Virus record (IMG/VR): IMGVR_UViG_3300037493_006469
Coordinates: 1 to 47,856 of that record
From: a virus
Length of the DNA stretch: 47,856 nucleotides
Strand: one strand, 5' to 3'
The notes beneath the pieces were generated by a model. That model worked only from the letters and a program-made list of their open reading frames with translations, was not told the origin of the DNA and did not search any database. Below, one piece after another: positions 8,311 to 45,522 of this stretch; the stretch's first letter is position 1, and every line of letters starts with the position of its first letter. The position numbers and the translations under genes were made by a program.

Positions 8311-8532
8311 ATGGTGCCCGTCCAGGTTTCAATCTCCGACGAGGAATGGCGTGCAATCTTCTCTCCCAAATCACCATCTCGGCAAAAAACACGGCGTACA
8401 ACGTTGGACACGGGCGGAGATTCAGCTCCGGTACCGTCTACGCCACCGGGAGCGATGTCAGACCAGAAGTCGCGAGGCATCGCGAAAGATCAGCGATCTG
8501 TGCCAGCGTCTGAAGATTCTGGTGGGATGTGA
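8311..8532 (+). CDS. Doubtful small ORF, possibly the truncated start of a gene hit by HNH insertion
   Basis: The first 19 codons (MVPVQVSISDEEWRAIFSP) look like a real protein N-terminus; the remainder is low-complexity and reads the HNH gene out of frame. AAGGAGG at 8273-8279 is followed eight bases on by ATC (8287) in this same frame rather than ATG. One reading is that a gene beginning at ATC 8287 or ATG 8311 was interrupted when the HNH gene arrived at about 8351. It may also be chance. Confidence 0.3.
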   Translation: MVPVQVSISDEEWRAIFSPKSPSRQKTRRTTLDTGGDSAPVPSTPPGAMSDQKSRGIAKDQRSVPASEDSGGM

Positions 8533-8719
8533 ACGATGCGGTTACAGAAAATGTGCCGCGGCACTCCAACTTCACCACCGCAATCCAAGTACAAAAACAG
8601 CCAGGTCTGTGACCTGGATAAGTATGTCGCGAATGTTGAACGAGTTTCTGCTTTGCGATGTGCTCTGCGCCAACTGTCACTTCGAGGTCCACGACGACCT
8701 CAGAAAGGAAAAGTCTTGA
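8351..8719 (+). CDS. HNH homing-type endonuclease
   Basis: A 122-residue protein from GTG 8351 (GAGGAA upstream). The C-terminal half has the zinc-binding HNH layout: C60-x2-C63, L-x-HH (75-76), N78, then LCANCH with C106-x2-C109, H110 and H114. The basic N-terminal half probably contacts DNA. Homing HNH genes cut near their own site in relatives lacking them and spread by repair. It sits directly after DNA polymerase and is less GC-rich than that gene, consistent with recent arrival. The stop overlaps the TTG start of the next gene. Confidence 0.8.
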   Translation: MQSSLPNHHLGKKHGVQRWTRAEIQLRYRLRHRERCQTRSREASRKISDLCQRLKILVGCERCGYRKCAAALQLHHRNPSTKTARSVTWISMSRMLNEFLLCDVLCANCHFEVHDDLRKEKS

Positions 8720-9042
8720 ACATCAAGATTCGCCCCGAGCAAGTCGACGCCGTCCGTCTCGCCCTCAACACCGGCTGCCGGTCCGTGGCCTCGATTGCGC
8801 GGGAGGCCGGGATCTCCCACCAGCCGACCGTCCGCCGGATCCTGCGCGAGCTTAACTTCCTCGGCACCCCGGTCGTTGCCACGGAGAAGGGCGTCTTCGT
8901 CGCCACCGATCCGGGCGACGTGTACGCCTACGTCTACGAGCTGGAGGCGCGGGCCGCCTCGCTTAACGACCGCTCCAAGATGCTCCGCTCCATCGCCCAG
9001 GTCATGCAGGCGAAGAGGTCCCTCAGTGGAAGTGCCTGCTGA
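8716..9042 (+). CDS. HTH-type DNA-binding protein
   Basis: A 108-residue protein starting at TTG 8716 (AAAGGAAAAG upstream; TTGA overlap with the HNH stop). Residues about 18-45 (CRSVASIAREAGISHQPTVR) form a helix-turn-helix of the type seen in transposase-like and replication-initiation proteins. The rest is a short strand pair (VVATEKGVFVAT) and a helical C-terminus. Lying between polymerase and nuclease genes, it may regulate the early operon or bind the origin. No closer family was recognised. Confidence 0.65.
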   Translation: MNIKIRPEQVDAVRLALNTGCRSVASIAREAGISHQPTVRRILRELNFLGTPVVATEKGVFVATDPGDVYAYVYELEARAASLNDRSKMLRSIAQVMQAKRSLSGSAC

Positions 9043-9244
9043 GTTCGCCGGCCTTGTCGGCCATTCCCGTGGCCCCGTTGTCCTGTTGGCTCTGCTTCTC
9101 AAGGAGGTGCGAGAACTTCGTCATGAAATTCAGGAATTTTGCGCTGTGCGTGGTCCTGCTGTCGGTGGTGTTCCTGATCTGCGGGGCGATCCGGAGCCTG
9201 GGCGAGTCGATCGGCCAGGGCATCCGCGACGTCGGCGCGGGTAA
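9026..9244 (+). CDS. Possible small overlapping ORF
   Basis: GTG 9026 has AAGAGG seven bases upstream and opens a 72-codon frame whose first 40 codons (including VVLLALLLKEVRELRHEIQEF) look like a hydrophobic helix plus amphipathic helix, unlike noise. The second half is Gly/Pro/Arg-rich and overlaps the next gene out of frame. It may be a real small membrane-associated protein nested at a gene junction, or a shadow. Confidence 0.3.
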   Translation: MEVPAEFAGLVGHSRGPVVLLALLLKEVRELRHEIQEFCAVRGPAVGGVPDLRGDPEPGRVDRPGHPRRRRG

Positions 9245-9350
9245 CACCCAGCTCCAGTACCAGATCATCACCAACGAGCGCGCCAAGGCCCGGGCGGAGC
9301 TGGACCGCAAGCTGAAGGCCGGCAACCTGCGAGAGGCGGGGGGCCTGTGA
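9123..9350 (+). CDS. Small membrane-anchored protein
   Basis: A 75-residue protein: residues 5-24 are a hydrophobic anchor (FALCVVLLSVVFLICGAI) preceded by a lysine and an arginine, followed by a soluble helical tail rich in Lys, Arg and Glu. The topology fits an inner-membrane anchor with a cytoplasmic or periplasmic coiled segment. AAGGAGG lies 15 bases before the ATG, further than optimal. The stop overlaps the GTG of the nuclease gene. Function unknown. Confidence 0.55.
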   Translation: MKFRNFALCVVLLSVVFLICGAIRSLGESIGQGIRDVGAGNTQLQYQIITNERAKARAELDRKLKAGNLREAGGL

Positions 9351-10397: not shown

Positions 10398-10435
10398 CAT
10401 TGACTTCGGCGGCGTCGTCGCTATAATTGTATACA
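10391..10435 (+). promoter_or_regulatory. Sigma70-type promoter cassette, copy 2
   Basis: TTGACT (10400-10405), 16-base spacer, TATAAT (10422-10427), embedded in the same 46-base block found at 4571-4615 with only about six differences. A CCGG/CCGG leader hairpin with the shared loop core CCTACCA follows, matching the CTCTACCA of copy 1. It should drive the genes from 10490 onward. Confidence 0.85.
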
Positions 10436-10489
10436 TAAGTCGAACACCGGTCCTACCAGGCCGGAGGCACACAAGTAGGAGATCGACCC

Positions 10490-10819
10490 ATTCGTCCTCG
10501 TTGTAACGGAACAGTTGCGGAGCGGCTTGCCGCGCACACCATTCGGTCTGTCTTCCGGAATGGTATGTACTGCCACGAGTGGATGGGTGCCCGTTGGGGC
10601 TCCCAGAATCGTGGCGGCGGGCGGTACGGCTGCATCAACATCGGCGGGCACACCGTCGCAGCCCACCGGGCAGCGTATGAGGCATACCGTGGTCCCATTC
10701 CTGCCGGCATGGTTGTCATGCACCAGTGCGACAATCCGCTCTGCGTGAACCCGCAACATCTTCGGATCGGTACGCAGGCGGACAACATGCAGGATGCCTC
10801 CCGCAAGGGACGCCTGTAA
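10490..10819 (+). CDS. HNH endonuclease (HNH_3 type) with apparent ATT start
   Basis: The HNH core is clear: YCHEWMGA near the front, a Gly-rich hairpin ending AHR (58-60 from the ATT), then MHQCDNPLCVNPQHL (77-91). Homology-like sequence (RCNGTVAERL) continues upstream of the first ATG (10565) and ends at ATT 10490, which sits eight bases after TAGGAG and behind promoter copy 2. No ATG, GTG or TTG is available there, so initiation at AUU, or a shorter 84-residue protein from 10565, must be assumed. The enzyme would nick or cut DNA as a mobile gene. It separates the promoter from the DNA-binding gene that follows. Confidence 0.7.
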   Translation: MRPRCNGTVAERLAAHTIRSVFRNGMYCHEWMGARWGSQNRGGGRYGCINIGGHTVAAHRAAYEAYRGPIPAGMVVMHQCDNPLCVNPQHLRIGTQADNMQDASRKGRL

Positions 10820-10842
10820 CCCAAGAGAGGAGCGCCGCACAC

Positions 10843-11160
10843 ATTCCTGACTTCAGCACCGAGTACCAGTCGTACTTCAAGGCCGACAATCTCAGGGCCG
10901 GCCCCCTCACCCTGACCATCAAGTCGGTCGGGGTCGAGAAGATCAGCCCGCAGTCCGACGACACGAGCCCCGTGCTCTGGGTCATCGAGGACAAGCGGGG
11001 GGTCGTTCTGAACAAGACGCGGTACGAGCAGATCGCCGAGATCTTCGGCTCGCCCGACACCGACAAGTGGATCGGCAACAAGGTCGTCGCCTTCCTTGAC
11101 CCCTCCGTCAAGTTCGGGGGCAAGAAGGTCGGCGGCATCGCTTTCAAACCGACTGCCTGA
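10843..11160 (+). CDS. Phage ssDNA-binding-like / conserved replication-associated protein
   Basis: About 105 residues. The pattern LTLTIKSVGVEKI ... LWVIEDKRGVVLNKTRYEQIAEIFGS ... WIGNKVVAFLDPSVKFGGKKVGGIAF matches a small beta-barrel phage family often found in replication and recombination modules; an OB-like nucleic-acid-binding role is inferred. The frame has no ATG/GTG/TTG near the start of the conserved sequence; ATT 10843 follows GAGGAG by about ten bases. Arrival of the HNH gene between promoter and this gene may have removed the original start. Start is uncertain; the family call is moderate. Confidence 0.55.
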   Translation: MPDFSTEYQSYFKADNLRAGPLTLTIKSVGVEKISPQSDDTSPVLWVIEDKRGVVLNKTRYEQIAEIFGSPDTDKWIGNKVVAFLDPSVKFGGKKVGGIAFKPTA

Positions 11161-11200
11161 GTCTCCTTTCTCCCTCTCCTTCTCCCTCATCTCTTTTCTG

Positions 11201-11234
11201 GGACGCCCGGCCCCTGCAACCGGGCGTCCTACTT
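11201..11234 (+). terminator. Intrinsic terminator
   Basis: A perfect 10-bp hairpin (11201-11210 / 11220-11229, GGACGCCCGG arms) with a 9-base loop, followed by TACTT. It ends the transcript of the DNA-binding gene, after a long pyrimidine tract (11161-11199), and directly precedes the tRNA-like array. Confidence 0.7.
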
Positions 11235-11236
11235 AT

Positions 11237-11330: not shown

Positions 11331-11331
11331 T

Positions 11332-11381: not shown

Positions 11382-11387
11382 ATTAAA

Positions 11388-11418
11388 GCGGCCCTCGACC
11401 GGGGAGGTCGAAGGCCGC
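11388..11418 (+). other. Long hairpin in the RNA array
   Basis: GCGGCC plus TCGACC (11388-11400) pair with GGTCGA plus GGCCGC (11406-11418) with one mismatch and a GGGGA loop. The bases after it read CA, so the string GCCA closes the hairpin much as CCA closes the two elements before. No T-run follows, so it is not an obvious terminator. Confidence 0.5.
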
Positions 11419-13906: not shown

Positions 13907-14835
13907 TGGAGCTGTTCCAAACGCCGCGCCTGACGGGCAAGTACCTGGACAAGGTCTTGTCCTCGGGGTGGTACACGTCGGGGCCCATGGGGCAGCGGCT
14001 GCGCGACAAGGTCGCCGCCTTCATCGGCATGGGCATCAGCCCCGACCGGGTGGTCCTGGCCTCCTCGGCTACGGCGGGCTTTCAGGCCGTCCTGGACGCT
14101 TGCCGCGCCCACGGGGCCAAGACCGTGTCCATCACCGACGCCACCTGGCCTGGGATGCACCAGGCGATCACGCACGCCGGCCTCGGACGGGCGGCCCCCG
14201 ACGGCTTCGCCGACATCGACGTTTTCACCGACATCGGCGGGGCCTCAGAGATCGATGAGCGGGATCACTTCCCGGAGCCCGTCAAGATCCATGACTGCTG
14301 TCACTCCTGGCTGCCGGCCCCCGGCCGGGACTTCTACCTCATGAGCTTCTATCCGACGAAGCTGGTCCCGGGGGCCGAGGGCGGCGTCGTCATCTGCCCG
14401 CGCAACGACATCGCCGAGGAGGTCGCCTACCGCCTGTACTGCGGGCTCGAACCCGGGGCCGCCGGCCAGGGTAAGGAGCCCCGCTTCCAGGGGCGCAAAG
14501 CCAATATGACGGACATCACCGCCGCCCTCAACCTGGAGGCGTTGGAGGTCGCGCCGTACTACATCAAGACGATCGGTGACTCGTGGCGGGGCCTCGCGGC
14601 CGAGGCCGATCGCCAGGGGGTCATCTACCGCGCGCATAACACCCGGCCTTACCTGTTCCAGGCCATGGTCGCACCCAAGGAAGTGTCCGCCATTCGGGAG
14701 AGCCTCAAGGAACGGGGCATCCCGTCCGCCTGGAACTTCCGGCCCGCGGGCCTCGTCACCCTTCCTTGTTACCCAGGAATGCTGCCCCACGAGATCAAGC
14801 AGGTGGTCGGGGCAGTGAGGGAGGTCCTTGAGTGA
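13906..14835 (+). CDS. DegT/DnrJ/EryC1/StrS-family sugar aminotransferase
   Basis: A 309-residue PLP enzyme from GTG 13906 (AAGGAGGAGG upstream). The start GKYLDKVLSSGWYTSGP is the family's usual opening, SSATAGFQA binds the cofactor phosphate, D130 and H133 (IHDCCHS) hold the pyridine ring, and K152 in SFYPTKLVPGAEGG forms the Schiff base. It would transfer an amino group from glutamate or glutamine to a nucleotide-linked keto-sugar. It is shorter than the common 360-400 residues. The stop overlaps the TTG of the HNH gene. Confidence 0.85.
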   Translation: MELFQTPRLTGKYLDKVLSSGWYTSGPMGQRLRDKVAAFIGMGISPDRVVLASSATAGFQAVLDACRAHGAKTVSITDATWPGMHQAITHAGLGRAAPDGFADIDVFTDIGGASEIDERDHFPEPVKIHDCCHSWLPAPGRDFYLMSFYPTKLVPGAEGGVVICPRNDIAEEVAYRLYCGLEPGAAGQGKEPRFQGRKANMTDITAALNLEALEVAPYYIKTIGDSWRGLAAEADRQGVIYRAHNTRPYLFQAMVAPKEVSAIRESLKERGIPSAWNFRPAGLVTLPCYPGMLPHEIKQVVGAVREVLE

Positions 14836-15586
14836 TGAGAAGGAGGAGGGGGCGCGAAAAAGAAAGCCACTATCCGAGGAGCAACGTCAACTAAAAAAAA
14901 TTCATCGAAAACAATATTATCTCCAACACCGAGAAATATTGCTTGCTAAATCTCGGAAGTATTTTCTGGAGCACCATGATAAAAAATATGCCGCCGAGCG
15001 GCGATATCAAGAGCGGCACCGAGAGCGCATTAAAGAGCGAAGCAGGCAGCGAAGCAGGCGTCGAGGGGATGGCTATGCCATCCTTGGACACGGGCGCACA
15101 TGGCCCCCCTATTCATTGAAAATGAGGGTTATCAACGAGGTCGCTCTCCAGGCAGGATGTGCAGTATGTGGATATAACGAGACACATGCGGGAATGTGCT
15201 GGCATCACCTACGAGATAAGCGTTTTTCTTTCAATCGTCCCAGGATATGTCCCATTCCTTGGGCCGACATTATTGAGGAAATGGGACGATGTGTTGTGTT
15301 ATGCCATAACTGCCATAGTGCCGTACATAACCCAAAGAACGGTTTCATAACACCTCGTCGGCGAGCCCGCATCGAAGAGATTCGCGCGCAGTCATCCAAG
15401 TCTCCGCCTCCATCGCTCCCGCCCACCATTTCGCTGACCTCTTTGTCCGTCGCCCCAGGATCCGACAGTACTCCGCTTTCATGCGTTTTAGTTCCTGCAC
15501 ATCCTGAACCAGTTCAGTTGCAGTTCGCCTTCCAGGATCCGCAATCTGACCCAACGGATGAACCATCACCCGACAACGCGGGGTGA
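14828..15586 (+). CDS. HNH homing-type endonuclease, AT-rich insert
   Basis: Residues 1-80 are a lysine/arginine-rich, mostly helical region; residues 111-167 are the HNH domain: C111-x2-C114, W-HH (126-127), LCHNCH with C159-x2-C162 and H163, and H167. TTG 14828 overlaps the aminotransferase stop. The gene is visibly AT-richer than both neighbours from about 14870 to 15340. The HNH domain ends almost exactly where the convergent ClpP-like gene ends (15345), and the last roughly 80 residues (Ser/Pro-rich) are read antisense through that gene, so they are probably an accidental tail. A mobile endonuclease inserted at an operon boundary. Confidence 0.8.
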   Translation: MSDEKEEGARKRKPLSEEQRQLKKIHRKQYYLQHREILLAKSRKYFLEHHDKKYAAERRYQERHRERIKERSRQRSRRRGDGYAILGHGRTWPPYSLKMRVINEVALQAGCAVCGYNETHAGMCWHHLRDKRFSFNRPRICPIPWADIIEEMGRCVVLCHNCHSAVHNPKNGFITPRRRARIEEIRAQSSKSPPPSLPPTISLTSLSVAPGSDSTPLSCVLVPAHPEPVQLQFAFQDPQSDPTDEPSPDNAG

Positions 15587-15830
15587 TGAACCGGCGGACA
15601 CCAGAGGCAAGAACGGGAACCGCGGCGGACCAGCATACGCCCGTGGCAACAATCTCTGTCGGGTTGGCTTCGAGGTAGTCGATCGCCGCGAACATATCGA
15701 ACAGGCTGCCCCCCTCGCTGTTGATTATAAGGCGAGGGGGGCCAGTGTACAGCGCCCGCAGAAGGTCGTTGTTAACTTCCCCCGCGTAGAAGAGCGGAGG
15801 GTTTGATTCCGGGGTTGATGACGGGTCCAA
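15345..15830 (-). CDS. ClpP-like serine protease
   Basis: A 161-residue protein if it starts at TTG 15830; the frame is open further, to 16022, and the true start is uncertain. The ClpP-type core is complete: FYAGEVNNDLLRAL, LIINSEGGSLFDMF, nucleophile S68 in TGVCWSAAV, and H91 in VMVHPLG, ending with ARESLRCGLADEVL. In phages this family usually matures the procapsid, but here the gene is the last of the virion operon rather than next to the coat gene, so it could act on internal proteins or on host targets. It overlaps the preceding membrane-protein gene and, on the other strand, the HNH tail. Confidence 0.75.
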   Translation of the reverse strand: MDPSSTPESNPPLFYAGEVNNDLLRALYTGPPRLIINSEGGSLFDMFAAIDYLEANPTEIVATGVCWSAAVPVLASGVRRFITPRCRVMVHPLGQIADPGRRTATELVQDVQELKRMKAEYCRILGRRTKRSAKWWAGAMEAETWMTARESLRCGLADEVL

Positions 15831-16047
15831 GTACCGCGGCTTCGAGGACAGGCAGGATGGCGTTGGTCTTCGCGCAATGAACCTCGAGCTTCGCCAACCG
15901 TCCGTTCTGTGTTTCATTGTGCCTCTCGATCCGGGACAAAGACAGCCTGATCTCGCGTAGACTGGCGCGGGTGAATCCCACGAAGACTCCCAGACCCACG
16001 GCCGCCCCCGCGCCGAGTTCACCGAGGTTGCTCCAGACGTCGATCAT
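15772..16047 (-). CDS. Small membrane protein with coiled coil (holin candidate)
   Basis: A 91-residue protein just after the giant internal protein gene. Residues 11-28 (LGAGAAVGLGVFVGFTRA) form one membrane segment, followed by a charged amphipathic helix (residues 29-50, SLREIRLSLSRIERHNETQ) and a second apolar stretch (65-75). The single-pass-plus-coil layout occurs in holins and spanin-like proteins, and this is the only obvious candidate near the end of the late operon. No endolysin was recognised nearby, so the lysis role is only a guess. Confidence 0.55.
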   Translation of the reverse strand: MIDVWSNLGELGAGAAVGLGVFVGFTRASLREIRLSLSRIERHNETQNGRLAKLEVHCAKTNAILPVLEAAVLGPVINPGIKPSALLRGGS

Positions 16048-16049: not shown

Positions 16050-19000
16050 TTATTTCCTTGGCATAAGGATTTCGACGACCCGATCGCCGAACTGTTTGCG
16101 GACCTCCTTCGACTGTTGGTTTACCGTGCCTGTGATTTTTTCGAGCATTCTTTTCTGGTCGGTCAGTGGCTGCGTTTCCTTCTTCATGTGTTGAAGCAAG
16201 TACTTGAATCGCGGGTTCGCACCAGCCTGTGCCACCCGCTCCTCCAGGGTCTTCACGGCCGAGTCGACCTTCTCGGGGTCGTCGGCCCCCTTGAAGCCCA
16301 TGCTGTTGTCGCTCCAGGTCATCCGGTGGATGAACTCGAGGATGTGCCTGTCGGCCACGCCCTTGCGGTCGAGGTTGGTGACGATCGCGGCCTGCTGGTC
16401 GATCGGGAGGCGCCCGAAACTTTCGTGCGGGTCGTAGTCGGAGATCCGGTTGGCCATCTGCTGGGACTCGCGTTCGGTCAGGCCTGTGGTCACCTTGGCC
16501 GCGCCGAACTCCGACTCGGCGCGCTGGTGGACGAGCTTGACGAACTCCTCTTCGGCGCGCGCCTTGGCCGCCGGATCCTTGGCCTCCTGGATCATGCGGA
16601 AGTAGGCGCCGCGCAGCTCCTGGTATGGCGAGTACAGCGACTGGTCGGACGGCGTGTCTCCCGGGTTCCGGAAGAACCGCTGGGCCTCCTTGATCTCGTT
16701 GATGATGATGTCCTCGTCGTCCGCGACGTTCCGCTTCTGGTTCGGAGCCCGGGTGCCAAGGTAGTCGTCGATGTAGGAAACAGGGACGCCACGCGGGTCG
16801 GCGCCAGAGATGGTACGCAAGAGGGTCGAGGCCACGCCGGCCGGGGCTCGGAAGGGCCGCCCGGTCGCCGGGTTGATCGCTGCGGTCGCCTCGATGGCCT
16901 TCTCCACTCGCTCGACATCGCGGCCCACGACGTTGAAGGGCCCGGCGTGAATGTGCGGGAAGAGGGGCGACACGAAGTTCTGAGTGAGGGCCTTCATGTA
17001 CTGGCCCACCTTGGTCGGGAAATCTACGTCCTCGTCAACGATCCTCTCCCCGGTAACCTGGTCTCGACCGGCGACCAAGGTGCCAAGGTTGAAGAGGGGG
17101 TTGTTCAGGTAGAACTGGCCGGCGTACCCCACCGCTCCGGCCAGGATCTCCTGGCCCAGGCCTCGCTTCTCCGGCGGCATCAACATGTCGGTGCCGACCC
17201 CCACCGCGCCGCGGGCCGTCGTGATGTCGGCGGCGGGCAGCCAGTTCCCGGTGTTGATATCCATGGCCAGGTTGTTGTCCCCGTCCAGCGACATCAAGTG
17301 CGTCATGAAGTACTTGACGGTCTCGCCCCATCCGCGGGCCCCCCGTGCGTGGACCATTGCCTCGAGCCTGTCCCAGTTCGTCCCGCTCAAGGTCATGGAC
17401 GAGAAGTTGAGAGCGCTGACGGCCCCGAGAGTACCGATGGTGCGCGCCGGGTAGTGCGTCAGGAAGTTCTTTCCGAGCCGCGTCAGCTCTGCCGGGAATG
17501 ACGTGATGAGCGACAGCATCGGGTTGCTCGAACGCAAGGACTGGGGGACCCGGCTGTAGTCTTGCATGAACGTCTTGACGCGCCAGATCGCCTCGGACTT
17601 GGGCATCCCCGAGTCGAGCATGTTCTTGTAAGCCGCGAGCTTGAAGTGCTCGTCGATCTGGTTGTAGAACTTCTTCGCCATGTCCATGACGCCGTTGTTC
17701 GGGATGCCCAGCTTGTTGGCGCCGTCGAGCCAGAAGCCGCCGATGAACCGACCCATGCGCTTGGCGAGGCCGGCGTTCAGCGTGTCCATCGCCGCCTGGA
17801 TGGAGGCCAGCTCCTTCTGGAGTTCCTGCGTGTTGACGGCGGCCGAGGTCTTGCCCTCGGAGGCAAGCTGGCTCTTGCGCAGGACCGCCTCACGCTTCTT
17901 GAAGAGATCCTTCAGGGCGATCCCGTCCTTCGTCCCGAACCCAACCATATCCTGCCAGGCGCGCCGGATGTACTGGTTGTTCTTGTCGAAGAAGGTGCCG
18001 GTCAGGACGCCATTGTTGACCGCGTCGACGTAGAGCGGGTCGTGAGCAATCTTGTTGTTGAGCGGAGACGTCTCCTTGATTGCCCACCAAAGGTTCTTCA
18101 CATTGTTCAGGTTGTAGACCCCGAACTGCCCCATGTGATCGAGGATGACGTTGAACATGAAGTTGCCGACCCAGGTCCGGGGCGACTGGATGATCTGCGT
18201 CATCTTCGCGACCTTGGACATTGTGTCGAAAACAACGTTGCCCGCGTTTGCCACCTTGTTCACGATCTCGTCGGGGACCGGATAGTTGGCGTGGCTGAAG
18301 CTCTCCTGGAGCCCGGCCATAAACCCCTTGAGGCCCTCGTGCGTCTTCACCATATTGTTCATCTCGGCGAAGACGCGCTTGTGAACCCACTTGCCGGAGA
18401 TGGACCCGAAGTGAGCCTGGTCGGTGGGAACCCGCACGAACTGGGACGCCGCCTGGAGGCCGCTCTTGCCCTTCAGCGTCAGGGCGTTCCGGGCCTCGTC
18501 GGTGAGGACCATGCCGCCGTAGAGGTCAAGGGCCTGGACGTAGGAGTGCATCATGACGTCCCGCCACATCTGCTGGAGGCGCTCGATCCGCTTCAGGGGG
18601 ACCGCCTCGGAGCCGAGGTAGTCCAGGTTCCGGAGGCCCTCCTTCCCGAGCGGGGCCGCCACCGAGATGTTGTCGCGGTACTGGGTCTTGCCGCGGAAGA
18701 TCCCGTCCTTCTCCACGAGCCCGTCGATGATCGCCTGGCCGTAGTTCTGGCGGATAAAGCGGTGGGCCTCGACGACGCTCGGGAAGTACTCGTCGACGAT
18801 CGCGTCGGGCTCGTCAACCCGCACGCGGTACTGGGTCGCGTCCCTCTCCATCTTGAACTCGGAAAGATCGGTGAGCTGCGGCGGCGACTCCATGCCGCGG
18901 CCGGCGCCGCCCTTCTTGCCGAGGCCGCGCACGACGTCGTCGCGGACCAGGCCCGGGCGCTCGTGAACGCCGTAGGACTTGGGCGCGTACCCGAGCTTCT

Positions 19001-35393: not shown

Positions 35394-35766
35394 GCGGAAA
35401 AACCTCCGAAACTACCAACCGGGTGCAGCGGCGACGATCCTTCTTGGCTCGGACGAGGTCGCACCAAACCCTCGAGAGGAGCTGGATGTCGGAACTGTCC
35501 TTTCCGAAATCCGGGATCCAACGTTGAATGAACAACCAAAGTTCTGTAGGAACACGAATCGAACACTCCATCTGGCCCGCGCGGCCGGCGGAGTAGCCGT
35601 CGGTCGTCACGTTCCGAAGTTCGCGGAGCGACTGCTTGAAGTAGTCGGCCTTGTTCGGGTACAATGTTTCGTAGGCTCGAGCTACCTCTGAAAGAAATTG
35701 CTCTTTCCCTGTTTTGGAATGCACATCAAAGCGAGCAATTTCATGCTTCCAGGAGCGTTTCTTCAT
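35164..35766 (-). CDS. Hypothetical protein co-transcribed with the LAGLIDADG gene
   Basis: A 200-residue frame from ATG 35766, starting inside the LAGLIDADG stop (ATGA) with GAGG upstream. The first 125 residues (basic and helical, including WKHEIARFDVHSKTGKEQ and TELWLFIQRWIPDFG) look like a real domain; the last 75 are Gly/Ala/Glu low complexity and overlap the glycosyltransferase N-terminus by 230 bases in another frame. The real protein may end earlier through an unseen frameshift. It probably travelled with the homing gene. No family recognised. Confidence 0.45.
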   Translation of the reverse strand: MKKRSWKHEIARFDVHSKTGKEQFLSEVARAYETLYPNKADYFKQSLRELRNVTTDGYSAGRAGQMECSIRVPTELWLFIQRWIPDFGKDSSDIQLLSRVWCDLVRAKKDRRRCTRLVVSEVFPRVSKSRPVSEKAEGAGAAEVGSEGAAEGGPAPGPADDGEDGTRKDGAGLGGDDREGLRGVIAEDAGVPPVELPQAD

Positions 35767-36131
35767 GCTACCTCTTGAGAAATGATCTCGCGCTTTTGGG
35801 CACAAAGTATGCGGTAGAACTGCTCACGCCAGTGCGCCGATACCTTGGCCGACTCGAGCAATGTGACGAGCTGCGCGCGTTTGCATAGGCATACGCGAAC
35901 CAATTTCTCGGCCAGAGCCAATGCTGAGGGGCCGTGCCAGGTAAGAAGAGAACACGGCGGGCATCCCCGCGTATGAAGATGCCCGCCGAATTTGCTTTGC
36001 ACCGCTTGAAGAATGGACCTATCTTTCTGCGCAAGGGTAAGCCGGGGGTAGTAAAGTCTGCCGCCGTTAGAGGACGCCAGGATCACACACCCTTCACCAT
36101 CGAAGAAACCGGCCAACCACCGAAGATCCAT
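35763..36131 (-). CDS. LAGLIDADG homing endonuclease (single motif)
   Basis: A 122-residue protein with one LAGLIDADG-type motif at the N-terminus (WLAGFFDGEGCV, residues 5-16), followed by strands (LYYPRLTLAQKD), an ILQAVQSKFGG helix and further half-site-binding pattern. Single-motif enzymes work as homodimers and cut long, nearly palindromic sites. ATG 36131 follows AAGGA. It sits 15 bases after the coat gene stop with no visible intron, so it is free-standing. Its DNA is less GC-rich than the coat and GT genes. Confidence 0.75.
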   Translation of the reverse strand: MDLRWLAGFFDGEGCVILASSNGGRLYYPRLTLAQKDRSILQAVQSKFGGHLHTRGCPPCSLLTWHGPSALALAEKLVRVCLCKRAQLVTLLESAKVSAHWREQFYRILCAQKREIISQEVA

Positions 36132-36145
36132 AAGTCCTTATTCTG

Positions 36146-37075
36146 TCAGGAAATATATGACACGTATCCCGTCCCGCCCCCACCGGCCTTCTCGGTCCGG
36201 TAGAGCAAGGTCAGCATCGCGCTGATCTGGAACTGGGTCGACAGACCAGCCCGCGCGAGCACCTCGCTCATGAGGGGCTGGAGCCACCCGGTCTCGAAGT
36301 AGGCCGGGTCGAGGAGGACGATCGAGTTCCCGTAGGTCGTCTTGGACGCCGCCGAGAGCTGGTCCCTCGAATGGAAGATGTTGATGTCCCCGAAGTCGGA
36401 GACGTGCCGCTCGATCACGTTGTACTGGATCTTCTCGGCCGCACCGACGTTCCGAGTGAGCTTCGTGTCGAACTGCGAGATGGTCCGCTTCAGGTACGAG
36501 TTGACGAAGCAGACAGTCGGCTTCACGTCCGTGTTGTCGCGGAAGAGCTGGACGAGGTCGCCCCACACCGACTCCGTGAACGTCGTGCCCGAGGAGGCCG
36601 TGAAGTTCGTGGAGAAGATGTTGAGGAGGCCGTTCAGCTTCCTGGCCGCCGCCGTCGAGCCCGTGGCCGCCGACTGGCGGTGGATGGCGTGCTCGATGTC
36701 GTTCAGGGTCGCCTGGATGGCCTGGTTCTCCTTGTAGAGGAGGGTGTCCGAGAACCCCTTGTGGTCCACGGCCCTCTGCTCGTCGGAGGCCTTGCCCCAC
36801 CGCGCGAACGTCTGAACGTGCGTGTACGACCGGGTCGGCATCCCGAGGGACAGGTCGGTGGCGTCGACACCTTCGATCCAGGCGTTGTACGCCCTGGACG
36901 GGAGGGAGTCCTCGAGCCACTCGATGAAGGTCGTGTTGACCTTCGTCCGGCGGAAGAGGGCCAGAGCCGGCCGGTCGATCGGGCTGACGTTCTCCACGAA
37001 GTCGCGGAGATCCTCCGGGATGGAGCCCCCCTGGGGGCGTCCGGAAGCAGTGAATTCCTGCCACGTGTTGATCAT
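36146..37075 (-). CDS. Major capsid protein, SU10/DUF5309-like
   Basis: A 309-residue protein matching the SU10-type coat pattern: early FVENVSPIDRPALALF, then TFIEWLEDSL, IEGVDATDLSLGMP, the THVQTFARW segment, and the long helix LLYKENQAIQATLNDIEHAIH that forms the spine. C-terminal strands (INIFHSRDQL, IVLLDPAYFETGWLQPL) complete an HK97-like fold. It follows the scaffold-like gene by three bases. This fold would assemble the icosahedral shell. Good confidence from pattern and gene order. Confidence 0.8.
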   Translation of the reverse strand: MINTWQEFTASGRPQGGSIPEDLRDFVENVSPIDRPALALFRRTKVNTTFIEWLEDSLPSRAYNAWIEGVDATDLSLGMPTRSYTHVQTFARWGKASDEQRAVDHKGFSDTLLYKENQAIQATLNDIEHAIHRQSAATGSTAAARKLNGLLNIFSTNFTASSGTTFTESVWGDLVQLFRDNTDVKPTVCFVNSYLKRTISQFDTKLTRNVGAAEKIQYNVIERHVSDFGDINIFHSRDQLSAASKTTYGNSIVLLDPAYFETGWLQPLMSEVLARAGLSTQFQISAMLTLLYRTEKAGGGGTGYVSYIS

Positions 37076-37078: not shown

Positions 37079-38053
37079 TTACTTGTTTTGCTGGAGAGCT
37101 GACCTGAGCTTCCGCCACTGGATGTAGAGTCGAGGATCCTGGGATCCGGCCTTCATCTGGTCGTTGATCTTTCCAAGCTCCTTCTCGAGCTGCACCCTCT
37201 GCGTGCCGGCCACCTCTGGGGTTGGAGTTGACAAAGAACGCGACGGAACGATCGAGGCGCCGCGCTTACGCGCATCCACCTCCGCGGGGTTGACCCGGGG
37301 GTTGGAGGCCTCGTCGGCCAAGATGCCACGGACCTGCAAGGCGATCTGGTACGGGGCGTCCGGAAGGGCGCGCAAGGGGGACGTGTTGTAGAGCTGGAGG
37401 AACAGACGGTTGGCGCTCGTTCGCGCGTCCGCCAGTTCCGGGAACTCTTCGCACGCTTCCTTGAAGGACGCGATGTGCATGTTGGTCTGGGCGACCTTCT
37501 GAGCTTCCGCGTACTGCCTCTGCTGGTCGTAGTTCACCAGGGCCTGTTGGACGACAGCGGCGATGTCGCTCGCCGGGGCGTTCTTTGGCGCATCCCCCCC
37601 CAAGTCGCCGAGCCCCGAGGGGTCTCCGGCGGAGTTGTCGGGTTTACCGTGGGCGGCAGGGGAGCGAGACGATAGCTGGGTAATGAGTTTCGATTGGTCT
37701 TCGAGTCGCGACACGAGCTGGGAGAGCTGCACCTCGAGCTGGCTGCGGCCGTCCTGCTCCTGCCGGTATTTCTTCGTGAGCTGCGCGATCCGGTCGGCAG
37801 CCGTGCGGCCCCCCTTGCGCTGGGCCGGGGGATCGATCTCGCCGCCGGCCACGAGCTGCTTGCCGGGTTCGGCGCCTTCGACCTGGCCCCCGCCGAGCAT
37901 GTCGACGTGGCTGATGCTGTTCGACTGGCCCGCCGCGATGCTCGACTCAGCAAGGTCCGGAAGGACCTGGCCAGTGACATCGGCGCGGGCGGGCTCGGTG
38001 CCGGGGCTGTCGCCGTCGATCGAGGGGAACAAGGTGCCGGGGTCGCTGGGCAT
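37079..38053 (-). CDS. Scaffold-like protein
   Basis: A 324-residue protein with a disordered Pro/Gly/Asp-rich N-terminus, a central coiled coil (about residues 84-130, DRIAQLTKKYRQEQDGRSQ and onward), a second helical section around 165-245 and a Lys/Arg-rich C-terminal helix (VQLEKELGKINDQMKAGSQ). This layout, and its place between portal and coat genes, is typical of phage scaffolding proteins that guide shell assembly and then leave. Not homologous by any obvious motif. Confidence 0.7.
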   Translation of the reverse strand: MPSDPGTLFPSIDGDSPGTEPARADVTGQVLPDLAESSIAAGQSNSISHVDMLGGGQVEGAEPGKQLVAGGEIDPPAQRKGGRTAADRIAQLTKKYRQEQDGRSQLEVQLSQLVSRLEDQSKLITQLSSRSPAAHGKPDNSAGDPSGLGDLGGDAPKNAPASDIAAVVQQALVNYDQQRQYAEAQKVAQTNMHIASFKEACEEFPELADARTSANRLFLQLYNTSPLRALPDAPYQIALQVRGILADEASNPRVNPAEVDARKRGASIVPSRSLSTPTPEVAGTQRVQLEKELGKINDQMKAGSQDPRLYIQWRKLRSALQQNK

Positions 38054-38066
38054 GGGATTCTCTATT

Positions 38067-38417
38067 TCACCCGAGCTGCTTGTCGCGCGACTGGTTCACG
38101 GGAAGATCGTCTTCCTCGGAATCGAACCAATCTACGTTTGCCTTCTGGGCGTCGGGTAAGAGCGCGACCAGAGAGCGACGGATTTCTTCGATGGCCTCGA
38201 TCCTCCCCAGGACGCGGTCCGGGTTGCGCCCGGTGCCGGTGCGGAGCGAGTGCATGGCAAGTCGCTCCAGGTCCCGGAGAAGAGCAGTTACGAGCTGGAA
38301 CCCGGTGGTGGAGGCGGTTTCGAGGAACGCGTCCCCGCGCGTCTCGATCATCTTCGCCTCGCCCTGCTGAAGGAGGGCCTCCAGTTCCAACTCGAAAGGT
38401 AATTTCCGATAGGTCAT
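38067..38417 (-). CDS. Hypothetical protein between portal and scaffold
   Basis: A 116-residue, mainly helical acidic protein (for example FQLVTALLRDLERLAMHSL, RIEAIEEIRRSLVALLPD) ending in a very acidic stretch (DWFDSEEDDLPV). Small helical proteins at this position in other podovirus-like genomes may be portal accessories; nothing here identifies one. It follows the portal gene with a short gap and precedes the scaffold gene. Confidence 0.6.
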   Translation of the reverse strand: MTYRKLPFELELEALLQQGEAKMIETRGDAFLETASTTGFQLVTALLRDLERLAMHSLRTGTGRNPDRVLGRIEAIEEIRRSLVALLPDAQKANVDWFDSEEDDLPVNQSRDKQLG

Positions 38418-38427
38418 GCGGCGTTCC

Positions 38428-40491
38428 TTACATCGACTGGGGTTGCTGCCCGCCCTGGGCCACGACCTGCATCATCTGCTGGATCAGGGCGGCCTGCTCG
38501 GGCGTCCTCACCATCAACCGACTCATGTTCCGGTCCAACACGTCGAAGTAATACTTGGCGAGGGCGTTCTTGTTGATGGTCCCGGTCTGGTCCGGCCAGA
38601 AGATCTGGAGGGCCTCACGCGCCCGCGCCATCGCGAGCTGCTTCGACGTGTTCGCGGGGGTCCCCGACGGGACCAGGTCGTAGTCGTAGGAGATCTCCGA
38701 CTTCTTAGCGAGTTTGGGCATCTCCTCGCCGGTCACCCGGAAGACCAGCTCCTGGGGCCCGAACTCGAGTTCGAGGAGCCAGAGTTGCCGGTGGACCTTC
38801 GACATCGCCGACTGGAAGAGGGCCGCGTCCTGGCCGTAGACCGACTGCGTCACGCTCTGCACGGCGTTGACTTCGGTCGCGGTCCGGCGCTCGGGGGCGT
38901 TCTCCGCCATCACCGACGGGTCGAAGAGGCCGACGTACTGTTCGGCCATCCCGCGCACGTAGTTCTCTTCGTTCAGCGACTGGATGAGCCCGCTCACGTC
39001 CATCTGAAGGGGCTGGATGTCGCCCACCGACTGAACAGGGATGATGGCCCCCGGGGTGAACTTGATGTTCGGTGGGATGGTCCCGGCGGTCGCCCTCATC
39101 TGGAACATCGGCGCCAGGACGATCTGGATCGCGTCGAGCCGCGCGTTGTGAATCTTGTTGACCTGCGCCTGGAACGTCGACAGAAGTTCGGCGATCCCGC
39201 GGGCCGAGTACAGCCGGTTCGATGTGTGCTCGAACTGGAAGAGGGTCAGCGGCCACTCGAAGAACGGGTTGGCGTAGGGGTGCAGGGCCAGGACGGTGTG
39301 CGTCGAAGGGTGATACCAGAGGTGGTGCTTCTCGAGGATCCCGTCCCCGTCGAGGTCGAGCTTCGCATACATCTCGAGGAAGACGTCGACGGTGGGCTCG
39401 TCTTCAGTCGCCGCGGTGATCCCGTCGGCCGCATCCAGGGCGTTCTCGACCGCGGACCGCCAGGCGCCCGTGCGCGCCCCGATCCCGGACTGCATCTCGC
39501 CGCTGTTCGCCGACTTGTTCTTCAGCCCGTCGGCGACCTTCTGGGCCGCGGTGGGGTCGAACCAACCGTCGCGCGCCATCCGCAGGACGTCGTCCGACGA
39601 CAGCCGGTGGATGAGCCCGATGTAGGAGGCGTCCGCGATCTCGCCCGTCGGGCACCTCGGGGGCAGGATGACGTCAAGGGGGTTGAACACCTGCCACCCG
39701 GGCCGGTCCGCCCGGATCAGCGAGTAGTACAGCCGGACGACCTGCGCACCCTGGAGGATCGCCTGGGTGGCCTCCAGGATCTGCCCAGCCTCCATGGGGT
39801 TGTCGCTCTTGACGACATATTCGTCTTCGAGCGTCTTCGCCACGAACTCGGCCGGCGACATCTGGGGCGGCACCTGCTGCGCGGCCTCGGGCGGCGCCTG
39901 GCCCGCCTGGATGGCGGCCTGCACCTGGGCCCCGATCTGGGCCGCCTGCTGGTTGTAAGCGTCGACGGTGGCCTGGACGCCGTTCGGGAAGAGGGTCTCA
40001 ACCCGTACGATCCGGCACTGCCGCTCCGTCTTGTACTCCCACCCTTGCCGCGTGAACGCCATCCCGTGCTGGCCGATGTAGTCCACCAGCTCCAGGGCCG
40101 TCTCCTCGACCCCCGGGATGTCGTGGAACCTCCAGTGGTAGTAGGCCTGGGCGGTCGGCTGGGCGGCCATGGCCTTCTGATTCTGGGGGAAGAAGTAGCA
40201 GACCGGGTCGGCCTGCATGACGAGGGCCACGATCCCCGGCTTCCAGCGCCGGATCGTACCGTCGGTGACCGGCCAGGAATGGTTGTTCGCCCCGGGCCAG
40301 GGGAAGACCTTCGTCCGCCGGATCCCCTTGCGCTGCCGGATCAGTTTCTCCTGCTTCCCAACCCACTCCTGCCGGGCGTTGTCGCCCTCCTCGACGCGGG
40401 CGTACAGCTCCTTGACCTTGTCCTCGACCTCCTTCGTGATGCGGGAGTCGAAGTTCGAGATGTTAAGCGGATTTTCTCGTAGGACGCTCAC
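38428..40491 (-). CDS. Portal protein, P22-type
   Basis: A 687-residue portal. The N-terminal part (VFPWPGANNHSWPVTDGTI, then IVALVMQADPVCYFFPQ) is characteristic of long P22-like portals; the middle has the stem and crown strands, with YWDAK-like and HHLWYHPSTHTVLAL segments, and the end is Gln-rich (LIQQMMQVVAQGGQQPQSM), a likely barrel/helix region inside the head. It would form the dodecameric ring where terminase docks. It overlaps the glycosyltransferase gene by 29 bases and lies before the scaffold and coat genes, as expected. Confidence 0.85.
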   Translation of the reverse strand: MSVLRENPLNISNFDSRITKEVEDKVKELYARVEEGDNARQEWVGKQEKLIRQRKGIRRTKVFPWPGANNHSWPVTDGTIRRWKPGIVALVMQADPVCYFFPQNQKAMAAQPTAQAYYHWRFHDIPGVEETALELVDYIGQHGMAFTRQGWEYKTERQCRIVRVETLFPNGVQATVDAYNQQAAQIGAQVQAAIQAGQAPPEAAQQVPPQMSPAEFVAKTLEDEYVVKSDNPMEAGQILEATQAILQGAQVVRLYYSLIRADRPGWQVFNPLDVILPPRCPTGEIADASYIGLIHRLSSDDVLRMARDGWFDPTAAQKVADGLKNKSANSGEMQSGIGARTGAWRSAVENALDAADGITAATEDEPTVDVFLEMYAKLDLDGDGILEKHHLWYHPSTHTVLALHPYANPFFEWPLTLFQFEHTSNRLYSARGIAELLSTFQAQVNKIHNARLDAIQIVLAPMFQMRATAGTIPPNIKFTPGAIIPVQSVGDIQPLQMDVSGLIQSLNEENYVRGMAEQYVGLFDPSVMAENAPERRTATEVNAVQSVTQSVYGQDAALFQSAMSKVHRQLWLLELEFGPQELVFRVTGEEMPKLAKKSEISYDYDLVPSGTPANTSKQLAMARAREALQIFWPDQTGTINKNALAKYYFDVLDRNMSRLMVRTPEQAALIQQMMQVVAQGGQQPQSM

Positions 40492-42183: not shown

Positions 42184-42737
42184 GGTTTTTTCAGGCTCCA
42201 GACTGAGCCTCCCTCTTCTACGTACCCCAGGTTGATCTCCTCGAGCGCCCTCCAGACCCCTGGATAGTTTCCGCAGAGGTCGTGCCCCGCTAAGATGCCG
42301 CCGGACTTCACCTTCGGGAACCAGGCGGCCAGGTCGGCCTTCACTCCTTCATAAGTATGATCTGCGTCAAGGAATACGAGATCCACCGTCCCGTCAGCAA
42401 ACTCGTCCGCGGCCCCGGGGGAGGCCCTCTCGACCGGGACGACAATGTTCTCGACCCCGGCCTCCCGGACGTTCGCCTTGAACTGCGGAAGGAGGGAGCC
42501 GCCGGCCAGCTTGATGAAGTCGGCCATCTGGTCGGTCACGCAGTCGGCGCCCGTGAACGTGTCCACCGCGTAGACCAGTACCGACCGGCGATCCTCCTGG
42601 ATCCGCTTGGCCAGATGGATGACCGAACACCCCAGCCAGACCCCGACCTCAACGACGCGGCCGTGGTCCGGGATCTGGCCCAGGATCCGGTTGTAGAACT
42701 GGCAGATCCACTGGCTGCCCATCGCGGGATCATCCAT
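42180..42737 (-). CDS. Class I SAM-dependent methyltransferase
   Basis: A 185-residue protein starting at ATG 42737 (GGAGAG upstream), eight bases inside the terminase gene. Motif I is VVEVGVWLGCS (28-38), followed by VYAVDTFTGAD, and LVFLDADHTYEGVKADLAAW and GGILAGHDLCGNYPGVWRA, typical of the CmcI-like/Methyltransf_24 group that methylates sugars or small molecules. With glycosyltransferases and an amino-sugar cassette in the same genome, sugar O- or N-methylation is a reasonable guess. Longer upstream reading would overlap terminase and has no start signal. Confidence 0.75.
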   Translation of the reverse strand: MDDPAMGSQWICQFYNRILGQIPDHGRVVEVGVWLGCSVIHLAKRIQEDRRSVLVYAVDTFTGADCVTDQMADFIKLAGGSLLPQFKANVREAGVENIVVPVERASPGAADEFADGTVDLVFLDADHTYEGVKADLAAWFPKVKSGGILAGHDLCGNYPGVWRALEEINLGYVEEGGSVWSLKKP

Positions 42738-44358
42738 CGTTCTCTCTCCGCAAGTCGTCGTCAGTGAACCTCTGGAGCCGGTTCCTCTCCTCGGTCGTGC
42801 AGGGGAGAGGGTACAGGACCGCGTACCGGACCGCATCCGCGGCGTCCTTGTACTCCTCCATCACCTTGGTGAAGAGGCCGCGTTCGGGCGATTCAACATT
42901 GGAGAACGCATAGGACATGAACGACTCGGCGATGTTGGGACAGTTGTCGTGAATGTAGAGGTGTGGCCGATTCGCCGGACCCACAGGGAAGTTCTTGTCG
43001 TATCGCAGCAGGTCGTTAATGACCTCGTGGCCGTAGTCGATGGTGGCGGTGTTCGGGACCGTGGCGTCGAAGAACAGGCCGTACTCAGCCATCGCGTTAA
43101 CCCAAGAAGTCTCCCGGAACCCATATCGCTGGGCCTCGGCCTTCCCGAACCGCGGGTCAACAACACGAACGGGGGCGGGGCAACGGCCCTCGGCGTTGCG
43201 GATTACGGTCGCAAGTTCAGCATGGGGGAGCCCCCCGGATCGCATTTTATGAAAAACACCGGGCGGCCATTCGCGATAAAAATGGTAGGTGTGGGTGGTT
43301 GGGTCGAAGGCGAACCAGGCGAGGAAGGCCGGCCTCTTCAAATGGGGATCGACCGAGAGACCGTGAATCCACTCACGCGGCGGTTGAAAGGAGGGGATAA
43401 TGTGCACGGACGGGTCAAACAGGTCATAGACCCTATCACCTAAAAATTGGAATCGGCCATGTAGCCGCGCCGCGCGTTCCCTTTCTGAATATTCGCCGTT
43501 ATCTTCGAAAGCCTGCCGTTGTTCCGCGGTGAGTCCGGGGTTGTCCTTTTGCTCAACCTCGACTACAAACATGTCGGGCGGCGGGTTCGTGTAAAACGCC
43601 GTGTACATCCAGGCGCTGTGCGCCCCCAGCGGCGTCAAGGTGAACCATATATCGCCGAAGTTGTCGGTGAGACGAGCCCAGATCGCGGAGTACAACGACG
43701 CCCGGATAGGCTCGTCGACAGCGCAGTAGTCCAGGATGAACCCCTCGAACGACAGATCCTCCTGCTCGGCAGACGCCCACATCAGGCGTGAGCCGTTCGG
43801 GAAGTCCATATAGACCGGGGTCCCGCCGCCGCCCTTGATGACTTTGCACTTCTGGCGCGTGGCTTCAGGCAACGCGGCCATCAGGGCCGGAAACAGGTTC
43901 TGCGCGATCCCGCGGTCGCGAGGCAGGCCGGTCAGGAACATCCCGACGTTGGGGACCCGCATAGGAATTCCATCGGTCCGCCTTATCCAGTAGGCGGGCG
44001 GGACCTCCTCGCGCGGGGGAAGCTCGCCTTCTTTGGTCAGTCGAAGGTTCGGGATCTCCCAAAACCTGTACCCGACAACATGCCCGATGACCTCGTGAAT
44101 AGAGGCGAACGACTTCCCGCTGCGATTCGCACCCAGAAAAAGCCTGCGGCGGAACTTCTTACCCGCTTCGTGGAAGGCACGCTGCTTCGCGTGCTTCATC
44201 ATCATGTCTCGGTAGAAGAGGAGCGGGGCCGCGCGACGTCGACGCTCCAGTTCTGATTGCGCCTGGTACAACATCTCCAAGTCGGCGCGCGAGACGTTCG
44301 GCGCGGTGCCAGTTGGAGTGGCAGTAGGAACAGAGGACGGAACACTGGCAGAGTTCAT
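42730..44358 (-). CDS. terL: Terminase large subunit
   Basis: A 542-residue packaging motor. The ATPase half has Walker A GANRSGKS (about 76-83), a C-terminal Walker B region FILDYCAVDEP (about 207-217) and coupling-motif-like WFTLTPLG; the nuclease half begins near GLSVDPHLKRPAFLAWFAFD with acidic residues spaced as in RNase H-like nucleases and ends with EEYKDAADAVRYAVLY. It cuts and pumps concatemeric DNA through the portal. The first roughly 28 residues are Ser/Thr/Pro-rich and overlap the HNH gene, so the true start may lie nearer 44274. It belongs with the small subunit upstream. Confidence 0.9.
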   Translation of the reverse strand: MNSASVPSSVPTATPTGTAPNVSRADLEMLYQAQSELERRRRAAPLLFYRDMMMKHAKQRAFHEAGKKFRRRLFLGANRSGKSFASIHEVIGHVVGYRFWEIPNLRLTKEGELPPREEVPPAYWIRRTDGIPMRVPNVGMFLTGLPRDRGIAQNLFPALMAALPEATRQKCKVIKGGGGTPVYMDFPNGSRLMWASAEQEDLSFEGFILDYCAVDEPIRASLYSAIWARLTDNFGDIWFTLTPLGAHSAWMYTAFYTNPPPDMFVVEVEQKDNPGLTAEQRQAFEDNGEYSERERAARLHGRFQFLGDRVYDLFDPSVHIIPSFQPPREWIHGLSVDPHLKRPAFLAWFAFDPTTHTYHFYREWPPGVFHKMRSGGLPHAELATVIRNAEGRCPAPVRVVDPRFGKAEAQRYGFRETSWVNAMAEYGLFFDATVPNTATIDYGHEVINDLLRYDKNFPVGPANRPHLYIHDNCPNIAESFMSYAFSNVESPERGLFTKVMEEYKDAADAVRYAVLYPLPCTTEERNRLQRFTDDDLRRENDG

Positions 44359-44629
44359 TCCAGAACCGTTTGGTCGGAGACTGGTGGTAACCGATCGATA
44401 TCGTCCTTTTCGCCGGATCGAGGTGGTGAAAATGCAAGAAGTCCGGGTTCCGTTCCCCGCAACTCTGACACCCCGTTTGTGTCTTGTACGCGGCCAGTGT
44501 CCGGCGCAGCCGATGTAGTCGCGTCAGGTAGTTCGCCCGAATTGTGCGAACCTTCTCCGGATTGTCCCTGCGCCACTTCCTGCAACGTGCCCTTTCCTTC
44601 TCCTCCTTCGATAACCCTGAAGGAGGCAT
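44159..44629 (-). CDS. HNH homing endonuclease between terminase genes
   Basis: A 156-residue protein starting at ATG 44629 (AAGGAAGG seven bases upstream). After a basic helical N-terminus (MPPSGLSKEEKERARCRKW) comes the zinc-bound HNH core: C54-x2-C57, L-x-FHH (68-69), then VLCSYCHSNWH with C100-x2-C103, H104 and H108. The last 40 residues overlap the terminase large-subunit frame and are probably accidental. Upstream, the small-subunit frame also runs through it. It lies exactly at the junction of the two terminase genes and is likely a mobile insertion. Confidence 0.8.
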   Translation of the reverse strand: MPPSGLSKEEKERARCRKWRRDNPEKVRTIRANYLTRLHRLRRTLAAYKTQTGCQSCGERNPDFLHFHHLDPAKRTISIGYHQSPTKRFWNELCQCSVLCSYCHSNWHRAERLARRLGDVVPGAIRTGASTSRGPAPLLPRHDDEAREAACLPRSG

Positions 44630-45173
44630 CCAGCAACCTTCCTTTCTCGGCGACAAGCCGCCGAAGGTCTTCGGTTGAAAGAGCGGTGACGTTCACGCCG
44701 CCGCTGTAGACGTGCCGAATGGTCTGGTCCTGGGAAAGTTGCCCCAGTCGCTCGTACATGAGTTTGCACGCGCCCGGATCACCGGTCATGCTGCGCTGAA
44801 ACAGGGCCGAGTCCACCATGCCGATCCGGTGGGTGAACAGCGATTTGAGGGTTCGGCTGATCCAGGCGGTTGCAACGGGATTGCTTAACACCCGCTTCAC
44901 GCGCTCGGCCGACACGCCGCAGTAGAACCCGATGGCCTTCGGGCCCGTTTCCCCGTTCAGGAGGGCCTCCGCCACCAGGGCGTCGAGGGTGGTGGGTTGA
45001 AAAGCGGCGACCTGCTGGTCGTCGACAGACTGGGCGTTCTGCCAGGCCTTGACGAGCGTGGCCCCGATCGCCTTATTACGCTGCGGCGCCAGCTTCCGCC
45101 CGGCCCGGTCTGCGCGCACGGCCCGCGGATCGCGCTGCCCGAGGGGCTCCAGCTTGAGTTTTTCTGGTTCCAA
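44355..45173 (-). CDS. terS: Terminase small subunit-like protein
   Basis: A 272-residue frame from TTG 45173. Residues 60-120 hold a helix-turn-helix-type region (VAEALLNGETGPKAIGFYCG and VSAERVKRVLSNPVATAW), as in small terminases that recognise the packaging site. Residues 155-185 are an amphipathic helix (LSTEDLRRLVAEKGRLLDA) fit for oligomerisation. From about residue 190 the frame is Ser/Thr/Glu-rich and coincides with the HNH gene in another frame, so the natural protein probably ended near 44600. Order with the large subunit supports the call. Confidence 0.6.
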   Translation of the reverse strand: MEPEKLKLEPLGQRDPRAVRADRAGRKLAPQRNKAIGATLVKAWQNAQSVDDQQVAAFQPTTLDALVAEALLNGETGPKAIGFYCGVSAERVKRVLSNPVATAWISRTLKSLFTHRIGMVDSALFQRSMTGDPGACKLMYERLGQLSQDQTIRHVYSGGVNVTALSTEDLRRLVAEKGRLLDASFRVIEGGEGKGTLQEVAQGQSGEGSHNSGELPDATTSAAPDTGRVQDTNGVSELRGTEPGLLAFSPPRSGEKDDIDRLPPVSDQTVLE

Positions 45174-45522
45174 CGTTGTACTTCAGCTCCCAGACCTTGC
45201 CGGGGGCCATTCCCAACGACAATGCTCGGTTTTCCTCTGGCATAAGACCAAGGATAAGCATCCCTTCGAGACGCAACCTTGACATTTGGTCCGCAACATG
45301 GTAATATAGAATGGTCGAAAAATGCTTCCGACCATCCCTACGATGCTGACGAACCCGCTGCTGGATGTAGTAGGACTGCCCGACGTACACGGGGGCCCCG
45401 TCCGCAGCCGTCAAAATGTACACCCCAGCGACTGGCTCGGGTTCCCTGGCCAATTGGGCTTCGCTTTTGAAGTTCTCTGGTTTGGGGAGCCATGCCAGGA
45501 ACGGCCAGTCGCAGGTGTCCAT
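45076..45522 (-). CDS. GIY-YIG homing endonuclease
   Basis: A 148-residue protein. The GIY-YIG domain starts at GVY (33-35) and YVG (46-48), followed by RVRQH with R56 as the catalytic arginine, a helix and E86 as the metal-binding glutamate (LRLEGM). The last 32 residues (Arg/Ala-rich) overlap the small terminase gene in another frame and are probably spurious. It is the first gene of the packaging operon, and its DNA contains an outward plus-strand promoter. It looks like a mobile nuclease placed at the operon edge. Confidence 0.75.
   Translation of the reverse strand: MDTCDWPFLAWLPKPENFKSEAQLAREPEPVAGVYILTAADGAPVYVGQSYYIQQRVRQHRRDGRKHFSTILYYHVADQMSRLRLEGMLILGLMPEENRALSLGMAPGKVWELKYNVGTRKTQAGAPRAARSAGRARRPGRAEAGAAA
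45279..45307 (+). promoter_or_regulatory. Sigma70-type promoter within the GIY-YIG gene, plus strand
   Basis: TTGACA (45279-45284), 17-base spacer, TAATAT (45302-45307). It points toward the two small genes at 45549 and 45884 and the control region beyond, the only plus-strand genes between here and gp88. Confidence 0.7.

Follow-up and report, generated by a model that had tools for sequence, protein, structure and literature searches.

The stretch of DNA analysed here (the window) comprises the 47,856 bases of one virus record. A 126-bp direct repeat at both ends leads us to read its map as complete and circular. Family profile searches (Pfam and PHROG) called six nuclease genes of three folds: four HNH genes, HNH1 to HNH4, one LAGLIDADG gene, and one GIY-YIG gene, which together take up about 6% of the genome length (Table 1). 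The window encodes an SU10-type coat protein, and the podovirus MW202743 from Manatee Spring, which has a similar portal and terminase gene order, is a distant synteny relative. A close relative is represented by a single IMG/VR contig of 12.6 kb (L002/L009, hereafter L002), mostly 93% to 100% identical to the window in the shared capsid region and the sole return of both the portal alignment and the coat-motif pattern searches. A nucleotide search with the central 24 kb (positions 20000-44000) gave zero matches among named phages, queries of IMG/VR with the large terminase (TerL), DNA polymerase, and exonuclease found no close relatives, and neither the TerL query nor the coat-motif pattern gave a relative among bacterial genomes. 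Elsewhere in the window, a very large gene of 2496 codons (16050-23540, minus strand) has no NCBIfam match, and a gene for a Gene product 88 family protein (47076-47856; PF17338) extends into the end repeat.

Table 1. Nuclease genes, selected neighbours, promoters, and tracts of divergence from L002 (window coordinates).
Feature	Position	Strand	Match or remark
HNH1	8351-8719	+	phrog_2255 3.6e-18; GC 0.54
HNH2	10490-10819	+	HNH_3 5.2e-15; phrog_1872 1.3e-29
HNH3	14828-15586	+	phrog_3106 3e-13; GC 0.50
LAGLIDADG endonuclease	35763-36131	-	LAGLIDADG_3 PF14528 5.7e-5 (above Pfam cut-off); phrog_5046 1.8e-14
HNH4	44159-44656	-	phrog_2255 1.3e-13
GIY-YIG endonuclease	45076-45522	-	PF01541 1.1e-5, above cut-off
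Major capsid gene	36146-37075	-	SU10_MCP PF17236 2.6e-46
Large terminase gene (TerL)	42730-44358	-	phrog_2 1.9e-18
Small terminase gene (TerS)	44355-45173	-	phrog_24579 5.2e-4
Sigma-70-like promoter (TTGACT ... TATAAT)	10400-10436	+	ahead of HNH2
Second sigma-70-like promoter copy, near-identical	4580-4616		ahead of another operon
Divergence tract, LAGLIDADG	35400-36240		about 71-84% identity, window versus L002
Divergence tract, portal/next-gene junction	38050-38640		window empty site, L002 Endonuclease-VII gene

The first-pass annotation had listed six nuclease ORFs of three folds, and each indeed matches a nuclease family, HNH2 on the plus strand. All six encode a nuclease domain of a homing family, that of HNH4 with one conserved Asn changed. 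Rfam returned no intron in the window at the gathering threshold or at E ≤ 5, so the search for group I intron cores around the nuclease ORFs, which had been proposed as a check, came out empty at that limit. Since no intron family was found and the genes neighbouring all six nucleases are unbroken, we regard the nuclease genes as free-standing. They are also AT-richer than the other genes (mean GC 0.56 versus 0.64 and GC3 0.62 versus 0.81; p ~0.0015; the comparison was with 38 other genes, two in a shifted frame, which affects only their GC3 and works against the contrast).

HNH1, HNH3, and HNH4 belong to one family placed at three sites. HNH1 lies directly 3' of the DNA polymerase gene (6149-8299), and its TGA shares bases with the start codon, TTG, of an HTH-like gene (8716-9042; the HTH_28 match is weak). 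HNH3, the nuclease part of which covers approximately 14828-15343, occupies the gap between a DegT/DnrJ aminotransferase gene upstream (1.2e-18) and a convergent ClpP-like gene (15345-16022, minus strand; CLP_protease 3.5e-20); its ORF over-runs the domain and continues for ~80 residues antisense into the 3' part of the ClpP-like gene. The HNH4 ORF likewise over-runs its domain, with the nuclease core (approximately 44293-44629) lying across the TerS stop and the TerL start in a different frame and the tail being the 5' end of TerL read out of frame. Of the family motifs, all three proteins retain the four Cys, CxxCH, and the His that is conserved in HH; in HNH4, Tyr replaces an Asn kept by all of the eight other aligned members (CxNCH to CSYCH). 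The catalytic residues, the loss of which would have counted against the initial reading, are thus mostly in place, HNH4 being the doubtful case. A predicted structure of HNH4 with two paralogues (pLDDT 69) has a strand-strand-helix core, and Foldseek matches to the HNH4 model were not significant (best E 0.48, to the HNH protein Cap5). Elsewhere, members of the family occur within the tRNA arrays of phages and next to a gene for a T7-like nucleotide kinase.

HNH2, which retains the HNH_3 motif, lies between an exonuclease operon of the PD-(D/E)XK type and a small gene (10846-11160; phrog_21613) that is not assigned to a known family. Longer minus-strand ORFs at this locus were ruled out as the gene; the plus-strand ORF carries the family matches. 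Within 10480-10850, neither HNH2 nor the next gene has an ATG, GTG, or TTG after a ribosome-binding-like site; the HNH2 start is therefore uncertain, and judging from the sequence, both genes could begin at ATT. Both sigma-70-like promoters look strong; their pattern has two exact matches in the window versus 0 in 100 shuffles, and the leader after each copy contains TACCAG.

The GIY-YIG gene lies upstream of TerS, with its core at 45174-45522 and a tail that is the 5' end of TerS read out of frame. Aligned with a protein of Pseudomonas phage Clover, it retains GVY, YVG, R, H, E, and N, and its phage relatives are almost absent; a predicted model of the protein folded alone was discarded (pLDDT 43). 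TerS is bracketed by GIY-YIG and HNH4, and its frame stays open through HNH4. We rejected adaptation as an explanation of this open frame, since 19% to 37% of synonymous codon shuffles stay open too; named relatives of TerS, which would fix its true end, were not found.

The position of HNH4 and GIY-YIG, on either side of TerS and adjoining both terminase genes, raises the question of whether the two are packaging-associated nucleases, like HK97 gp74 or GVE2 HNHE, rather than homing genes. Terminase-adjacent HNH proteins are a known packaging component (PMC5304195), as is HrdP in Skunavirus (PMC12724721). We nevertheless consider this improbable: HNH4 shares its PHROG family with HNH1 and HNH3, which are located elsewhere in the genome; its named-phage relatives occur in FelixO1-type phages, within the tRNA array in FelixO1 itself; and MW202743 has no annotated gene resembling HNH4 between TerS and TerL. 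The GVE2-type structure was not matched by the HNH4 sequence either, in a single-sequence PDB search that could miss a distant relation.

For HNH1 to HNH4 and GIY-YIG, searches gave zero close relatives with or without the gene at a comparable junction; among the six sites, only that of the LAGLIDADG gene had an informative close relative. The gene starts 14 nt after the major capsid gene; at its other end, the TGA stop and the following gene's ATG overlap as ATGA. The protein has a single motif, WLAGFFDGEG, and the pair profile matches solved homing enzymes, best those of the I-OnuI type (1.8e-7). In both the window and L002, the gene follows the coat gene, and the two proteins are 78% identical, with a dN/dS of 0.20. 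In the distant MW202743, the gap between the coat gene and the next gene holds no annotated nuclease. The next gene in the window (35164-35766) stops after 119 codons in L002, whereas in the window it extends into the glycosyltransferase start.

The comparison with L002, a single relative, spans about 12 kb and two nuclease sites. At the second site, L002 carries an additional Endonuclease-VII gene of 110 codons (919-1251 of the contig; Endonuclease_7, PF02945 8.7e-20). In the window, the corresponding junction is a clean empty site of ~10 nt (38418-38428), and the L002 gene falls exactly in that gap, with the portal stop on one side and the start codon of the next gene on the other. The first residues of the L002 gene product, SRYRLRHRQE, resemble the basic segment LRYRLRHRER of HNH1, a likeness which suggests that DNA-binding modules may be shared between the two genes. 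A comparison of junctions in relatives, as initially proposed, thus yielded one filled and empty pair at the portal junction; for the LAGLIDADG gene it did not, because the gene is present in both close relatives and missing only from the distant MW202743.

Both comparable nuclease sites coincide with the two broadest troughs of identity between 39.3 and 30.6 kb, where identity is ~62% to 84%, and both troughs begin within coding sequence, at the ends of the coat and portal genes. The coat gene is 97.7% identical over its first 840 nt but 72% over its last 90 (Fisher p 5e-16); of its last 30 codons, 20 differ, yet only 2 residues are altered. Within the tracts, dS is 0.89-1.58 (0.89 and 1.44 in the LAGLIDADG tract), compared with 0.12-0.21 outside. 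Such tracts, sharp and recombination-like, at both comparable sites are the pattern that homing with co-conversion would predict. In mixed infection, the enzyme would cut the matching locus of a relative without the nuclease gene, the break would be repaired from the carrier copy, and repair would bring flanking sequence across along with the nuclease gene. Such transfer, in which the flanks are co-converted, has been described for the free-standing enzymes of T4 (PMC2988022), and nuclease genes have been located at exchange boundaries (PMC10448857).

The pattern is not proof of homing, because troughs without nucleases also exist and the positional test is marginal. Two further troughs, one at 32.83-32.98 kb and a smaller one at 33.3 kb, lack nuclease genes, as does the tail region; the first of these troughs (32829-32978) is sharp and lies over the glycosyltransferase gene's 3' end, with a nuclease gene on neither side. 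A circular-shift test of the coincidence between troughs and nucleases gave p 0.05-0.09. Both observations would fit ordinary mosaic recombination or fast-evolving junction genes, with the nucleases merely sitting in tolerant gaps. That explanation appears unlikely to us, given that synonymous and not just protein divergence rises several fold, starting within the coat and portal coding ends, and that the portal junction differs by the presence of a nuclease gene.

Relatives of the LAGLIDADG gene were retrieved from IMG/VR by short peptides alone, blind to gene context, and 16 of 36 non-redundant groups (~44%) directly adjoin a major capsid gene, on either side; the tree is mostly unresolved, so that this figure counts groups and not independent insertions at capsid loci, and binomial p-values for the adjacency ignore relatedness. 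Restriction to contigs of at least 20 kb, which limits the bias from short contigs recognised through hallmark genes, leaves 7 of 16 groups adjoining a capsid gene. The capsid families concerned include Mu gpT-like and P22-like, in addition to the SU10 type found here. Relatives in named phages occupy other places as well, next to Cas4-type exonuclease genes or, in Cyanophage PP, in the terminase/portal gap, and one IMG/VR locus (L016) adjoins a ribonucleotide reductase gene. A literature search of open-access papers found no statement of a capsid preference among free-standing LAGLIDADG genes. We tentatively raise the possibility, which we rate somewhat below even odds, that the gene is one of a lineage of homing endonucleases, free-standing and specialised for capsid loci, whose members lie directly upstream or downstream of major capsid genes from at least three sequence-distinct capsid families. 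If so, a common class of selfish element would time and again convert capsid genes from one phage to another, and a capsid preference of this kind would link selfish genes to capsid-gene exchange among unrelated phages.

Some of the six genes might instead be remnants of nucleases, inactive or in decay, in which GC-rich sequence keeps the reading frame open. The Asn-to-Tyr change in HNH4, the entry of the HNH3, HNH4, and GIY-YIG ORFs into their neighbours out of frame or antisense, and the lack of a standard start codon in the region upstream of HNH2 are all in line with this. The other catalytic residues are intact, however, and the LAGLIDADG gene, with two diverged alleles, is under purifying selection, so we hold decay to be rather unlikely. 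Taken together, the sequence data indicate, with a probability of about 0.8, that all six are homing-type endonuclease genes of the free-standing kind, with neither intron nor intein, set into narrow spaces between essential genes. Support for homing is good for the LAGLIDADG gene, reasonable for HNH1 to HNH3, and weaker for HNH4 and the terminase-side GIY-YIG gene, which could serve in packaging or in some other way. The description of the genes as free-standing and homing-type in the first-pass annotation accordingly holds up, given the lack of introns and inteins, the foreign GC and GC3, the presence or absence of a nuclease gene at the L002 junction, and the divergence patches. Its view that the sites mark conserved targets stands insofar as most neighbours are core genes; as cleavage targets, they are putative only. 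The high load that it noted is true in rank but not exceptional, since T4 has 15 homing endonuclease genes (PMC2988022) and Skunavirus genomes carry 1 to 8 HNH genes each (PMC12724721); these are genes of a known kind at a density that is unusual, not unprecedented. Small phages are generally assumed to face pressure to keep their genomes economical, yet this one contains six apparently selfish nucleases of three folds. The natural filled and empty pair provided by L002, together with two tract boundaries within coding sequence, makes homing at the capsid and portal genes directly testable.

The arrangement resembles that of T4, with its seg and mob genes, and of ICP1, in which nucleases of mixed folds lie outside introns, beside essential genes, and are accompanied by co-conversion-like tracts (PMC2988022, PMC10448857), although the genome described here is much smaller (47.7 kb) and its LAGLIDADG gene is free-standing whereas that of ICP1 is intein-borne. 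Lactococcal Skunavirus are likewise small phages with intron-less HNH genes at preferred sites, and two of their HNH endonucleases have been shown to exclude gene-less phage (PMC12724721); their nucleases are of the HNH fold only, one being a fixed packaging gene, compared with three folds in a different type of phage here. Cluster J mycobacteriophages also carry numerous free-standing HNH genes tied to mosaicism and, at their capsid gene, a nuclease resembling I-CreI (PMC3706429), but the latter lies within a spliced intron, whereas the LAGLIDADG gene follows an intact capsid gene. The Endonuclease-VII gene of L002 shares CxxC, DHDH, R, and CxxCN, with the motif toward the C-terminus, with the F-CphI/DHHRN (Endonuclease-VII-motif) homing clade (PMC6083498); F-CphI adjoins the intron-bearing psbA, while the L002 site showed no intron, the Rfam scan having covered the window. 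Finally, HNH4 recalls the hidden HNH insertion of ShiLan, in which the HNH frame also differs from that of the overlapped gene (PMC11855218); the ShiLan HNH lies inside one gene, whereas HNH4 straddles a gene boundary, reaching from the 3' end of TerS into the 5' end of TerL, with an open TerS frame that is within chance.
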